A stretch of 64,000 nt of DNA from Opitutaceae bacterium (GTDB lineage: Bacteria; Verrucomicrobiota; Verrucomicrobiia; Opitutales; Opitutaceae): NCBI GenBank assembly GCA_018402455.1, contig JAGYIG010000001.1:62001-126000 (forward strand), in the 5' to 3' direction. The notes under the pieces are model-generated. The model was not told the origin of the DNA. It saw only the letters and a list, made by a program, of their open reading frames with translations, and searched no databases. This document shows, piece after piece, positions 6,346 through 63,509 of this stretch (its first letter is position 1; each line of letters begins with the position of its first letter). The position numbers and the translations under genes are program-made.

Positions 6346-7082
6346 ATGAAGATTTTTGGCTTCACCGTGTTTCTGGCGATGGTGGCCGTGGTTTCGGGGC
6401 GGGCGGAAGTCACCTTCCGCAGTGGTTCTGCGCCGGTTGCTTTGCTCGAGCTCTTCACCAGCGAGGGGTGTTCCAGTTGTCCGCCGGCCGAACGCTGGTT
6501 GGGGAACTGCGCCACGATGATGGATTGTGGCGGGAATTTGTGCCCGTGGCCTGGCACGTGAACTATTGGGATCGGCTCGGCTGGCCGGACAAGTTTGCTG
6601 ACCAAGCCTACACCGATCGCCAGTATGCCTACTCCACCAAGTGGAAGGCGCGCACCGTTTATACGCCGGGGCTTGTTCGCGCGGGCGAGGAGTGGCGGGT
6701 GCGAGACGGAGATATGCTTGCCGCGGGATCCATGATCGGGGGCGAGCTCACGGTGGTGGTCGCCGGCGAATCGATGGCCGTGACCTTTCAGCCTCCGGTC
6801 GGGGCCCGGTTGCCGGCCGACTTACAAGTGAACGTCGCGCTTCTCGGTGGCGGGATCGAGAGTGATGTCCGGTCCGGCGAGAATCGCGGCCAGAAACTCG
6901 CCCACGAATTCGTGGTTTTGCAATGGGATCAGGCGGCACTCCCAGCAGGTAATACGTCCCTGCCCATCCCGATTTCCGATTTGGATGTTGAGGTCCCCGG
7001 CCGCGCGATGGCGGTGTGGGTGAGCTCCGCGAGCGACCCTACGCCGCTCCAGGCCACGGGAGGGAGGCTGGACAATCGATAG
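6346..7082 (+). pseudogene. DUF1223-family protein, split by a one-base frameshift
   Basis: The first frame gives a signal peptide (MKIFGFTVFLAMVAVVSGRAE) and the family's thioredoxin-like block LLELFTSEGCSSCPPAERWLG. The conserved continuation WREFVPVAWHVNYWDRLGW and everything to the stop at 7082 lie in the next frame. One extra G in the run at 6501-6504 joins them as WLGELRHDDGLW, giving 245 residues, the usual DUF1223 size. The function is unknown; a CxxC motif in a secreted thioredoxin-like fold suggests redox chemistry. Because the rest of the gene is intact, a base-call error is more likely than real decay. Confidence 0.8.
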
Positions 7083-42817: not shown

Positions 42818-43483
42818 TTAACTGATGCCCAGCCGCACGAGGCCGCGGCGAGCTGCCTCGCGGACCACGGCGTCCGTGGCGGGATTGCGGGTCAACGCGT
42901 CGAGAGTCGCGGCGGCGCCTTCGTCCCGGGAGGCGATGACAAAATCGATCATGGCCACCTGCACCAAGGGGGAGGTTTCCCGGGGCAGGATGAGGACCTC
43001 GCGCTGCTCCGGGGGGAGCGATTGGAGGGCGCGTTTCATGACCTTGAGGTCGTCCAGCCGGCTGGCGGCAGCTTCGGCGGTCGGGGTGGTGTCATCGGAG
43101 ACGCGATCGAAATCCGAGGGGTCCGTGGCGGTGCCTTGGCGGGCGTTGCGGCGGTGATGATCGGCGGCGACGTGGCGCGCGAGGTGATAGATCCAAGCGG
43201 AGAATTTTCCTTCGTCGCGGTAGGTGTGGCGGTATTTATGGATGCGCTGGAAGACGATCTGCACCAGATCCTCGGCGGATTCGCGGTCGCCGATCAAGCG
43301 GGCGAGGAAGCCATAAAGCGGGCGATGGTGGCGCTCGAACAAATCGCCCAAACGGGAAATTTCTCCGGCTCGCACGGCCAACATCAGTTCGTGATCACTG
43401 GGTTCTTCCATGGGATCGAATGAAGCCAAGGTAGCCCGGGTGGGCGCAGAGGCGAAGGGCATTTGTTGAGTGGTGGCAGTCAC
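42818..43483 (-). CDS. ECF sigma factor lacking region 4, fused to a HEAT-like tail
   Basis: 221 residues from a GTG (ATGs at 43462 and 43411 are alternatives). Sigma region 2 is intact: LFERHHRPLYGFLARLIG, SAEDLVQIVFQRIHKYR, FSAWIYHLARHVAADHHR. Region 4 begins (MKRALQSLPPEQREVLIL) but stops at residue 166. Instead of the helix-turn-helix, residues 167-221 read PRETSPLVQVAMIDFVIASR and end in VVREAARRGLVRLG. That resembles the last HEAT repeat of the anti-sigma/HEAT protein usually encoded next to such sigma factors. The joint, near 42985, is in frame. Without region 4 it could not contact a -35 element in the usual way. Confidence 0.75.
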   Translation of the reverse strand: MTATTQQMPFASAPTRATLASFDPMEEPSDHELMLAVRAGEISRLGDLFERHHRPLYGFLARLIGDRESAEDLVQIVFQRIHKYRHTYRDEGKFSAWIYHLARHVAADHHRRNARQGTATDPSDFDRVSDDTTPTAEAAASRLDDLKVMKRALQSLPPEQREVLILPRETSPLVQVAMIDFVIASRDEGAAATLDALTRNPATDAVVREAARRGLVRLGIS

Positions 43484-43626
43484 GGTGATCGGTCATCAGG
43501 GCGGCTCGTTGGGGAAGGAATACCGCGGGGGGAGCAGTGGGGTTACCAAAACAGGGAAGATTTTTATGGGATTAAGCTGAAGGATTCCGGCAAGCCCGGC
43601 CGTTCCAGTGGACACAAGTGATTCCC

Positions 43627-44620: not shown

Positions 44621-45873
44621 TCAGGGTGCGGCAGTCCCGACGGGGGGCCAGTTTTGGTAGGCGCCCGTGTGCATCACCGCCACCAACCGATCAACGGCGA
44701 CGTCCACTTCGCCGGGCGAGGTGTGGAAGGCGTTTGGTGCGATCCGCAAGACCCGGGGGTGGCGATAATCGGGAATGACCCCCACGTCGCGCAGCGCGGG
44801 GCAAATTTGGCCAGCCGCGGGGTGATGCAGTGCGAGGTGTCCTCCGCGGGCTTCGGGGGGTCGTGGGGTGATGAGCCTGAACCCGAAGGGAGTCAGGTCG
44901 GCGTCGATGCGTTGAAGCAGGCGCTGATTGAGATCGAGTGAACGCTGCCGAATCGCGGCAACCCCTCCCGCCTGCTCGAACAAATCCAAGGACCCCGCCA
45001 GCGGGGCGAGGCTCAGAATCGACGGCGTGCCCACCTGCAGCCGGGCGGCGCCGGTGGCCGGCACGTGGGTGGGATCCAGCTTGAAGCGCTGCGCGGGCTC
45101 CACTCCCCACCAACCGGCCAACCCGGGGGCCCGTTCATGATGACGGGGGTGCAGAAAAAGTCCGCCGATCGCTCCCGGTCCGGCGTTGAGGTATTTGTAG
45201 TTACACCAGAACGCAAAGTCGGCCCCCATCTCCTCCAGTTGATGGGGCACCACCCCAATGCTGTGGGAAAGGTCCCAGCCAAGGATGATGTGGCGCGCCC
45301 GGGCGGCGGTGGTGATGGCGGCCACATCAAGGAGCTGTCCACTCACGTAGAGCACACTGGGCAACACCACCAACTGCACGTCCTCGGTCATCGCGTTGAT
45401 GATGTCCGCCGTGGTCAGGGTGTGGCCATCGGGGGACTCCACCTGCCGCAGGGTCCGGCGGGGATCGCGTCCGCGGAGCCGCAGATGGCTCGCAATGGCG
45501 TGGTGGTCGGAAGCAAAGTTCAGCGCGTCGGCGAGGATAACCGGCCGATCCGTATCATCGGCGTCGTAGAGGGTGGCGAGCAGCTGGTGGAGGTTGACGG
45601 TGGTCTGGCCGGTCAGCGCCACGGATCCAGCCGTGGCGCCCACCATCATGAGCGCCAGCCGGTGGCAGCCGCTTTCGGGAGATCGATCCAACCGGCGGAC
45701 TCCCAAGCCCCAATGCCGAATTGTTTCCACGCCGCGATCGCCTCGTTCAGTTTGGTTTCGGCGGAGCGGCTGAGCAGGCCGAGGGAGTTGCCATCGAGGT
45801 AAATCTGGCCCGGCGGCAGGTGAAACTCCGACCGAAGGCGGTCCCAAGGGTGGTCGTCGGTTCGCGCATCCAT
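44621..45873 (-). pseudogene. kynU: Kynureninase, split by a one-base frameshift
   Basis: The first 70 residues (RTDDHPWDRLRSEFHLPPG, IYLDGNSLGLLSR, GAWESAGWIDLPKAAATG) are in one frame. The rest, from LALMMVGATAGSVALTGQTT, is in another. One added G on the coding strand near 45659 joins them as AAATGLALMMVGA, matching the family's LPxxxGxxLAxLxGA, and gives 417 residues, the normal kynureninase length. The PLP lysine is in FWCNYKYLNAGPG. It converts kynurenine to anthranilate and alanine. Start ATG 45873 is 5 bp after the RNA methyltransferase stop; kynB follows 16 bp after. Probably a sequencing error. Confidence 0.85.
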
Positions 45874-54127: not shown

Positions 54128-54837
54128 ATGCCGACCCCCGCCACCAATCTGATCGAAATCAGCGACCTGCGTTTTGCATGGGCGGGTGCCGCGGTGCCGA
54201 TTCTGGATGTGCCTGAGTTGGTGGTGGCGGCAGGCAAGTCGGTGTTCCTGCACGGCCCCAGTGGCTGCGGGAAGACCACGCTGTTGAACGTGATTGGCGG
54301 AGTCCTCTCTCCTCAGTCCGGCCGGGTGACGGTGATGGGCCAGGACCTGAGGCAGCTCAGCGGGGCCGCCCGTGATGCGCTGCGGGCGGATCAGATTGGC
54401 TTTGTCTTTCAACAATTCAACTTGGTGCCCTACCTCTCGGTCAGCGACAACGTCACCTTGCCCGCCCGATTTTCGGCGGCCCGGCGTCGGCGGGCCGAAG
54501 CGGTGGGGCTGCGCTCGAAGCCGCCGCCGCCGCCTTGCTGGCGCAATTGGGGATGTTGGATCTGCAGCACCAGGCGGTGACAAAATTAAGTGTCGGTCAG
54601 CAGCAACGGGTGGCCTTGGCCCGCGCGTTGTTGGGAGCCCCGGCCATGATTATCGCCGATGAGCCGACGTCGGCCCTGGATGCCGATCGGCGCGATGAAT
54701 TTGTGCAGTTGCTGTTTGAGTCCGCCGCCGCGGCCGGCAGCAGCGTGATGATGGTGAGCCATGACCGGGAGCTGGGTCAGCACTTTGACCGGGTCGTTGA
54801 CCTGCGGGACATTAATCGAGCCGGAGGGCAAAGCTGA
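54128..54837 (+). pseudogene. ABC transporter ATP-binding protein (LolD/MacB type), split by a one-base frameshift
   Basis: ATG 54128. Walker A: LHGPSGCGKTTLLNVIGG; Q-loop: GFVFQQFNLVPYLSVSDNV. The frame breaks at AEAVG. The signature LSVGQQQRVALARALLG, Walker B IIADEPTSALDA and the H-loop MVSHDRELG are in the next frame. One added G in the run at 54505-54508 gives VGAALEAAAAALLAQLG and 236 residues, normal for this family. The stop overlaps the permease start (TGATG). Probably a sequencing error, because all catalytic motifs are kept. Confidence 0.88.
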
Positions 54838-60613: not shown

Positions 60614-61750
60614 ATGCAAACCCGGATGATGCGTTGGGCCGAGGGAACTTGGCAGGGGGCCGGGGAACCCTGGTTGGACGCTCATCTGGTGTTGGTTTTC
60701 GGTGCCGGTGCCGTCCTCCGTGATCCCACCTTCCGGGCGGCCCTGCGAGCCGCCGGCCCTCGCGCCGAGATTGTGGGCTGCAGCACGGCGGGAGAGATTC
60801 TGGGCGACCGGGTGACGGATCAAGGCGCCGTGGCTCTGGCGGTGGCCTTTGACACTGCCCGAGCGCGGGTGGTGCACCACGCATTGGAGGAGGGCAATGA
60901 ACCGAGCTTTGCCGCCGGCCTGGCGCTCGGGCGGGCCTTGGCCACGGAAGGACTGCGGCACGTTCTGGTCCTGAGCAGTGGACTCAAGGTGAACGGATCC
61001 CGCTTGGTGGAAGGCCTGAGAGCGGAATTGCCGGCGGGCGTCAGTGCCACCGGCGGCCTGGCCGGGGATGGCTCCAGATTCCACGACACCACCGTCCTCC
61101 ACCGGGATCACTGCGGCCCGGATGGCGTCATCGGCGTGGGATTTTATGGCGATAGCCTGGAGGTGCACTGGGGCACCGCCGGAGGTTGGGAAGCGTTTGG
61201 CCCCCGTCGTCACGTCACCCGCAGCAAGGCCAACGTGTTGTATGAGCTCGATGGCAAACCGGCTTTGGAACTCTACAAAACCTACCTCGGCGAACGAGCG
61301 GCGGGACTGCCGGCCACCGGTCTGCTGTTTCCCCTGGAGTTGCTCCCGGTCGAGGACAACGCGTCCGGTTTGGTGCGCACGATTCTCGCCGTCGACGAGT
61401 CCACCCAGTCCCTCACCTTCGCCGGGGAAGTGCCGGAGGGCCGCAAGGTTCGGTTGATGAAATCCACGATCGACAAGTTGGTTTGGGGAGCCGAAACCGC
61501 GGCGGAAATGGCCGGTCGGTCCGGCTCGCCCCCCGATCTTGCCCTGCTGGTCAGCTGCGTCGGTCGCCGACTCGTGCTCGATCAACGCGTCGAAGAGGAG
61601 GTCGAGGCCGTGCTCCAACAGTTGGGTCACCCGCGGGCAGCCATCGGGTTCTATTCCTACGGCGAGATCGGACCGGGCGGCGTCAGCCACGGTTGTGAAC
61701 TGCATAACCAAACCATGGCCCTGACCACGCTGAGGGAGCGATCCGCATGA
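60614..61750 (+). CDS. FIST-domain sensor protein
   Basis: 378 residues. FIST_N: LVLVFGAGAVLRDPTF, EIVGCSTAGEILGDRVTDQG and LVLSSGLKVNGSRLVEGL, then SATGGLAGDGSRFHDTTVLH. FIST_C from about 220 has GKPALELYKTYLGE and LLVSCVGRRLVLDQRVEEEV, ending GFYSYGEIGPGG. FIST domains bind small ligands, possibly amino acids, and are linked to signal transduction. Its stop overlaps the histidine kinase ATG (ATGA), so the kinase is its likely partner. No signal peptide; cytoplasmic. Confidence 0.93.
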   Translation: MQTRMMRWAEGTWQGAGEPWLDAHLVLVFGAGAVLRDPTFRAALRAAGPRAEIVGCSTAGEILGDRVTDQGAVALAVAFDTARARVVHHALEEGNEPSFAAGLALGRALATEGLRHVLVLSSGLKVNGSRLVEGLRAELPAGVSATGGLAGDGSRFHDTTVLHRDHCGPDGVIGVGFYGDSLEVHWGTAGGWEAFGPRRHVTRSKANVLYELDGKPALELYKTYLGERAAGLPATGLLFPLELLPVEDNASGLVRTILAVDESTQSLTFAGEVPEGRKVRLMKSTIDKLVWGAETAAEMAGRSGSPPDLALLVSCVGRRLVLDQRVEEEVEAVLQQLGHPRAAIGFYSYGEIGPGGVSHGCELHNQTMALTTLRERSA

Positions 61751-63509
61751 GCGATGACTCCACCCACCCGCTGCTGCGCCGTCAGCTGGAAAAAACCCTC
61801 TCCGGCATCGACCTATCCGACGGCCCCTGGCCGGAGTTTTTGGCGGCGGTCAACGCCGCCTACCAGCAGGCGGACCAGGAGCGCGAATTTGTGGAACGCA
61901 CCCTCGACGTGGTTTCGACGGAATTGACCGCTGCCAATGAACAAATCCGGCGCGATGCCGAGGCGCAGCTGTCCCAACTCACCCACTACTACTCCCGCAC
62001 CCTCGACACCCAAAACGGCCTGGTGCTGTGCTACCGGCGCACGGCCGACGGCGATTTTGAGCACACGCTGTGTCGCGGCCAATTGTGCCAACGCATGGGC
62101 TATTCGCCGGATCGGGTGGAACACCATCGGCTGGGCAAGATTCTGCGCGGCCCCCTGCGACGTCGCATGCTGCGGGTCTACCAGGCCGGTTGGGCCGGCA
62201 AAATCAAGACCCTCGAAGGCGGCAGCAAACGCCGCGGGGTTCGCTTTCTGGCCGTCTTCCATCCCGTGAGGGAAAACGGTGAAACCACCGAGGTGATTGT
62301 GTCGGCGGTGGAAGTGTCGGAACTGAAATCCACCGAACAAGCCCTCCGCCAGGCCAAGGCCAAAGCCGAAGCCGCGGACCGCGCCAAGAGTGATTTCCTC
62401 GCGGTCATGAGTCACGAGATCCGCACGCCCATGAACAGCGTCATCGGCTTCACCAGCCTGTTGCGCACGACCCCCCTCACGGAGGAGCAGGCTCACTTCG
62501 TGAAGATGATCGAGTCCTCCGGAGAGGGACTGCTTGAAATCATCAACGATGTTTTGGACATTTCCAAAATCGAAGCCGGGCGACTGGAACTTTCCCTCGA
62601 GCCGGTCGAACCGCTGGGGCTCGCTCACGAGGTCGTGGCGATGATGCGCCCGCGGGCGGACGAGAAGGGGGTGCTGCTCCAGCTCCACGTGGCGGCCAAC
62701 GTGCCCGAACAGATCAAAACCGATCGCGCCAGACTACGACAGATTTTGATCAACCTGGTGGGCAACGCCATCAAGTTCACTGCCCGGGGATCGGTGTCAT
62801 TGGAGATTGAATACAACACGCCGGCGCAGCTCGGCGGCAAGGTGATCGACACCGGCATCGGCATCGCCCCCGAGGGGGCCGGAAACGCCTGTTCAAGCCG
62901 TTCAGTCAGGTCGACTCCTCGACCACCCGCAACTATGGTGGCACCGGTCTGGGACTCGCGATCTGCAAACGTCTCACCGAGGCCATGGGCGGCGGCATCA
63001 CGGCCTCCAGTGAGGCGGGGCAGGGGTCCTGCTTCGCCTTCACGGTCCTGGCTCCCGTCGTCGCCCCAGTGGTCGTGTCCCGCGCCACTGTCGCTGCGAC
63101 GGGAGATGGAGTGGTCAAGGATGCCGGGGAGGCCCCGTCCATTCTGGTTGTCGATGACAACCCGATCAACCGGAGGGTGTTGGGGATGATTTTGCGGACC
63201 GAGGGCTACCAAAAGATCGCCTATGCGGAAAACGGGGCGGACGCGGTGGCGCGGGTGCGCGAGCACGCGCCGGACCTCGTTTTTATGGATGTGGAAATGC
63301 CGGTGATGGATGGCATGACCGCAGTGCGGGAGATTCGCGGGTTGCCGCGTGTGACCGACCACACCCCTTGGATCATTGGACTGAGTGCGAACGTCTGGCG
63401 CGACACGGTGGAGCGGGCCCGGGCGGCCGGCATGAACGACTACCTTTCCAAGCCGCTGCGGCGGGAAGAGGTGAGCGCGGCCATTCGTCATCGTCTCCGG
63501 TCGCATTGA
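61747..63509 (+). pseudogene. Hybrid sensor histidine kinase with receiver domain, split by a one-base frameshift
   Basis: N-terminal helix, then a PAS-like domain (about 70-195) preceding a HisKA helix with the phosphoacceptor in FLAVMSHEIRTPMNSVIGFT (His near 222). The HATPase has LRQILINLVGNAIKFT (N box) and VIDTGIGIAPEG (G1), where the frame is lost. In the next frame RLFKPFSQVDSSTTRNYGGT and GLGLAICKRLTEAMGGGI (G2) continue, then a receiver domain: ILVVDDNPINRRVL and LVFMDVEMPVMDGM with the phospho-Asp. One added G in the run 62874-62878 restores 587 residues. Coupled to the FIST sensor by ATGA overlap. Likely a sequencing error. Confidence 0.9.

Follow-up and report, generated by a model that had tools for sequence, protein, structure and literature searches.

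A probable deletion fused and inactivated an ECF sigma factor/anti-sigma pair in one Opitutaceae draft genome

In this study, we describe a 64,000-nucleotide stretch of an Opitutaceae draft genome (hereafter, the window) in which a deletion appears to have fused and inactivated an ECF sigma factor and its anti-sigma partner, leaving the following DUF4097 gene whole, a reading to which we give a probability of about 0.8. The evidence for the deletion lies in the order of the parent genes in relatives, in the stretch that is missing, in the sequence of the junction, and in the lack of a second copy elsewhere in the assembly. The deletion, which spans about 840 bp, would have taken the 3' end of the sigma gene together with the anti-sigma gene except for its last 55 codons; it would have arisen between two short similar sequences, with the frame staying open by chance (by simple arithmetic, an open frame is expected in one of three deletions), and it is probably recent. 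Having lost the helix-turn-helix of region 4, with which the -35 element is read, the fusion would be unable to function as a sigma factor (the role of region 4 in ECF factors is taken from excerpts of PMC8103513), and signal input would be lost, since the zinc-finger anti-sigma domain and the presumed membrane anchor are gone as well. Self-activation of the operon would also be lost. The open frame, in turn, would keep ribosomes translating up to DUF4097, which starts 57 bp after the stop codon of the fusion, so that polarity on this gene would be avoided.

As a loss event, a sigma/anti-sigma fusion is ordinary. A natural deletion of this type would, however, reveal how an ECF operon behaves without its switch, DUF4097 being whole, and the fusion has led us to an operon of sigma factor, zinc-finger/HEAT protein, and DUF4097 that is conserved across the family.

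The fusion gene and its parent operon

In Pfam searches, sigma region 2 (PF04542) is recognized at fusion residues 48–115 (6e-18, 64.8 bits against a cut-off of 24), whereas region 4 (PF08281) is matched at profile positions 5–21 of 54 only, with 15.1 bits, below its cut-off of 25.7. The sigma factor of the closest relative, G002, has region 4 over profile positions 4–54 of 54 (6e-17), that is, 51 of the 54 positions as opposed to 17 in the fusion (Table 1). No zf-HC2 domain is matched by Pfam in the fusion. Over 56 residues, the tail shares 84% identity with residues 261–316 of the HEAT-domain anti-sigma-like protein of G002, and despite this homology no HEAT model of Pfam matches the fusion at E values up to 1. 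These results bear out the initial annotation, which had divided the product into region 2 plus the start of region 4 (residues 1–166) and the end of an anti-sigma/HEAT protein (residues 167–221), the latter standing in frame in the place of region 4. They also agree with its statement that no separate anti-sigma gene is left before DUF4097: when the G002 anti-sigma/HEAT protein was searched against the window's own genome (91% complete) at E values up to 10, the tail region was the sole match. Alongside the sigma gene, the putative cognate anti-sigma gene is absent apart from its last 55 codons, and the fusion keeps sigma region 2 but lacks the helix-turn-helix for -35 recognition, the zinc finger, and the putative anchor in the membrane.

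Table 1. Features of the window and altered sigma genes in other genomes
Feature	Position or locus	Strand	Remarks
ECF-type promoter-like site GGTAAC-N16-CGGTATTC	43518..43547	-	upstream of sigma start; sequence resemblance only
Fusion CDS, 221 aa	42818..43483	-	ORF list; GTG start
Sigma-derived part, residues 1–166	42986..43483	-	region 2 complete, region 4 first helix only
Junction	42981..42989	-	9 bp where both parental DNA matches to G002 overlap
Tail, residues 167–221 and stop	42818..42985	-	C-terminal HEAT-like end of anti-sigma/HEAT protein
DUF4097 gene, 356 aa	41690..42760	-	frame open throughout; third operon gene in relatives
Sigma gene with TAA stop codon	G006, L039
Sigma gene with frameshift	G005, L047
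Sigma gene with scrambled stretch	G007, L046
Sigma gene with frameshift	G196, L213		outside genus

In the relatives, the two parts of the fusion belong to different genes. Among 57 genomes searched (the window's own included), the sigma part has its match about 0.8–1 kb away from that of the tail in several members of the genus and family, and in genomes of the same family residues 1–168 and about 166–221 match two adjacent genes. The matches to the tail, for which a homology search had been proposed at the outset, lie in the neighbor gene of the relatives, separate from the sigma gene. The 18 loci that were fetched show a sigma gene of normal length, then a protein ending in tail-like residues, and then DUF4097. 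For a wider view, we used 106 other family loci, which are the stronger matches among 121 other matching genomes, 15 genomes with weaker matches being left out: the HEAT gene is present at 105 of these loci and DUF4097 also at 103, the gaps in the operon at L132, L155, and L195 being contig ends. The neighbor protein carries a zf-HC2 zinc finger and HEAT_2, both above cut-off, at L042; at L045 both are below cut-off (zf-HC2 just so), and at L038 there is HEAT alone, below cut-off. A membrane segment in this second protein is presumed, as read by eye from its sequence. The conserved operon of ECF sigma factor, zinc-finger/HEAT protein, and DUF4097 is seen at L038–L055 and L127–L214, with GTAAC-N16-GGT[TA] upstream in most cases, and in the literature searched we found no description of such an operon with a promoter-like site of fixed spacing.

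The fusion itself is known from one genome. A sigma gene running on into the tail is found at none of the 106 other family loci, and a match over residues 1–221 comes, among 252 family genomes searched, from the window's own genome only; three weak matches of this search (G148, G149, and G158, with 31–34% identity) extend to residues 181–193. At all 27 named loci, some of them in genomes shared with the 252-genome search, the match ends at residue 168–179. The search for the same fusion in related genomes, which had been recommended together with the first description, thus finds none besides that of the window and favors the deletion reading. Of the 170 records from a plasmid search, one holds an annotated SigF, matched at 28.5% identity with a coverage of 85%.

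The junction and the missing stretch

The junction, which had been placed near 42985, is confirmed by the overlap of the two parental DNA matches at that point. The missing stretch amounts to 841 bp by G002 coordinates, and to 845–857 bp when compared with four other members of the genus. At the breakpoints in G002, used here as a stand-in for the lineage's own parental sequence, there is a short imperfect repeat in which CTGC is exact and seven of the eight letters around CTGC are alike; exact runs of four or more letters occur at 2.7% of position pairs drawn at random. Deletion between short repeats makes gene fusions and pseudogenes. The window resembles such cases in the adjacent genes, the breakpoint repeat, and the single junction, and differs from them in the open frame, which makes a hybrid protein possible.

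Were the join an assembly artefact, intact genes would exist and would have been wrongly joined by the assembler or from a mixed sample population. We consider this improbable. An exact repeat of about 4 bp, as found at the junction in G002, is too short for the usual overlap or k-mer misjoin; moreover, the junction is far from the ends of its 216-kb contig, protein and DNA matches to the G002 genes reveal no further copy or piece of the missing genes elsewhere in the assembly, and visual inspection of the stretches compared shows no further gene with a similar loss confined to the window's genome. On the other hand, the genome is a 100-contig draft, 91% complete, and the window assembly is less trustworthy because four of the 30 conserved genes checked are frameshifted relative to G002, a state that either indel errors or decay of the genome would produce.

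The promoter-like site

ECF promoter elements are given as AAC and CGT in excerpts of PMC8103513, and the GTAAC-N-GGT[TA] site upstream of the sigma gene resembles them and is a candidate autoregulatory promoter. GTAAC-N16-GGT[TA] occurs upstream in 95 of 105 loci, the form with N17 in two (the window and L167), and neither in eight. The site of the window reads GTAAC-N17-GGTA, with a spacer one base longer than in most relatives; when exact CGGT is counted, the spacer is 16 in the window alone, 15 in 73 loci, and 12 in one. No weight is given to the additional base, because L167 shares N17 and the base falls within a run of C. Two candidate observations were discarded: that the window lacks the -35 element, which came from a misaligned upstream alignment, the element being located on re-examination, and that the window is the sole locus with a longer spacer, since L167 also has N17 when GGT[TA] is counted. 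When seven genomes were scanned for further occurrences of the promoter-like pattern, seven matches were obtained, two of them the operon's own, against four in the backward control, a result that neither supports nor argues against a wider regulon.

Constraint on the fused gene and its predicted product

A codon branch model was fitted to six members of the genus, comparing the branch of the window with the rest. The dN/dS ratio of the sigma part is 0.13 on this branch and 0.093 elsewhere (p 0.36), and that of the tail is 0.012 versus 0.059 (p 0.085). No rise on the window's branch is seen in three ECF genes used as controls, and the control rpoD has a lower ratio there (p 0.049); the fit for DUF4097 was set aside because its branch lengths were saturated. 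Private residues were assessed in 102 aligned sigma sequences, after dropping five broken or cut loci: the window's sigma departs twice from columns conserved in at least 95% of sequences, compared with one or two departures in each of four genus members, and the sigma part is therefore not an outlier. The private substitutions of region 2 are L82H and F/Y110H, neither histidine being present in the 101 other sequences.

Clear decay of the sigma part is shown by neither the branch model nor the private residues. With no significant decay, a recent deletion and a product under constraint both fit; the absence of a rise in dN/dS is what would be expected of a recent event. Against plain inactivation it counts that the branch test also fits a constrained product, with a lower ratio for the tail on the window's branch, that the promoter-like site is largely kept, and that the sigma part is unremarkable in private residues.

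An AlphaFold model was computed from ten aligned sequences that cover the sigma part, with zero alignment depth for the tail (alignment A2; A1 was left out, since in it sigma ends sat against the tail). Region 2 is predicted with good confidence (pLDDT 86–91 over most of residues 31–70), the junction at residues 162–169 is disordered in the fusion model (pTM 0.44), and the tail forms three low-confidence helices (pLDDT about 60–72) with no helix-turn-helix evident. In the window's own genome, 18 matches to PF08281 are found, of which ten coincide with region 2 genes and eight (two under cut-off) were not placed; with these eight left unplaced, a small protein made up of region 4 alone was not recognized.

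The initial annotation had proposed, as its second reading, a new regulator that keeps binding to core polymerase and no longer recognizes the -35 element. The deletion fusion has gained from the adjacency of the parent genes and from the occurrence of the fusion in no other genome searched, while the new regulator has received no positive support; nor does the branch test, in which no decay is seen, refute it. A functional protein of this kind would use its region 2 to bind core RNA polymerase, serving as a competitor or acting with a separate region 4 protein, and we judge it very unlikely. The open frame, the confident model of region 2, and the lack of significant decay would suit it, as would the precedent of SigO-RsoA, the split sigma factor of Bacillus subtilis described in excerpts of PMC8103513. 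Yet the fusion is present in one genome only, the private L82H and F/Y110H fall in region 2 itself, the junction and tail are poorly defined in the model, and the region 4 partner is missing from the matches that could be placed. If polymerase binding were true, the fusion would be one of the rare sigma-2-only proteins, with an origin that can be traced. Even less probable, by a little, is that the product is expressed and constrained, its region 2 taking up core RNA polymerase with no reading of the -35 element, either as a competitor of other sigmas or together with a region 4 partner, and with the HEAT tail as a new dimerization or targeting element.

The fusion can be compared with known systems described in excerpts of PMC8103513. 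It is like an ECF factor with a neighboring zinc-finger membrane anti-sigma in its region 2, its place as the leading gene of the operon, and its putative AAC/CGT-like upstream promoter, and unlike it in that region 4 ends after the first helix and the anti-sigma is reduced to the last 55 codons. With SigO-RsoA it shares being a region 2-type protein without a region 4 of its own, but its region 4 partner was not identified, and it is a probable deletion product of one genome. PhyR-type mimics, which titrate an anti-sigma, are comparable as a sigma-like domain without promoter recognition; however, they copy the whole ECF fold, and the cognate anti-sigma domain of the fusion is missing from the genome.

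The sigma gene across the genus

The deletion may be part of a wider process, the wearing-out of this sigma factor across the smaller genomes of the genus, which would add to the deletion reading and can hold alongside it. The gene is intact in G001, G002, and G003 (5.4–6.1 Mb) and altered in the window's genome (G000), G005, G006, and G007 (3.7–4.4 Mb), whereas one of 98 assessable loci outside the genus is broken (L213); the Fisher test of genus versus outside gives p 3.6e-5, or 4.3e-4 without G007 and 5.6e-3 without G005 too, values that treat related genomes as if they were independent trials. Sigma region 2 matches number 14 in the window's genome versus 34–38 in the three large genus members. 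Some of the lesions at L039, L047, L046, and L213 may nonetheless be assembly errors. In a control based on the G002 reference genes found in each genome, eight of 33 were flagged as disrupted in G005 (flags not inspected one by one), two of 29 in G006, one being the operon's sigma, and six of 30 in the window, four of these being frameshifts and two no more than stops that precede a start. In excerpts of PMC8636102, the authors of the long-read draft G007 suspect many truncated genes. The sigma lesions of G005 and G007 may be errors because of these disrupted control genes and this suspect draft, and in G004, where no sigma orthologue was found, the assembly is 82% complete. We hold the wearing-out to be possible, if on balance doubtful.

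Other genes with altered frames were seen along the way. Another ECF sigma gene (L109, on contig 70 of G006) has an ORF of 131 residues, compared with about 201 or more in relatives. In the window, a hybrid histidine kinase (61741–63494, forward strand) has a frameshift near 62880 with respect to G002, beside a G run, and a kynureninase-like gene (44624–45873, reverse strand) one near 45670, also with respect to G002; in an ABC transporter ATPase (54128–54828, forward strand) the frame shifts by one base somewhere between 54463 and 54550, and a DUF1223 gene (6361–7076, forward strand) has a frameshift near 6500.
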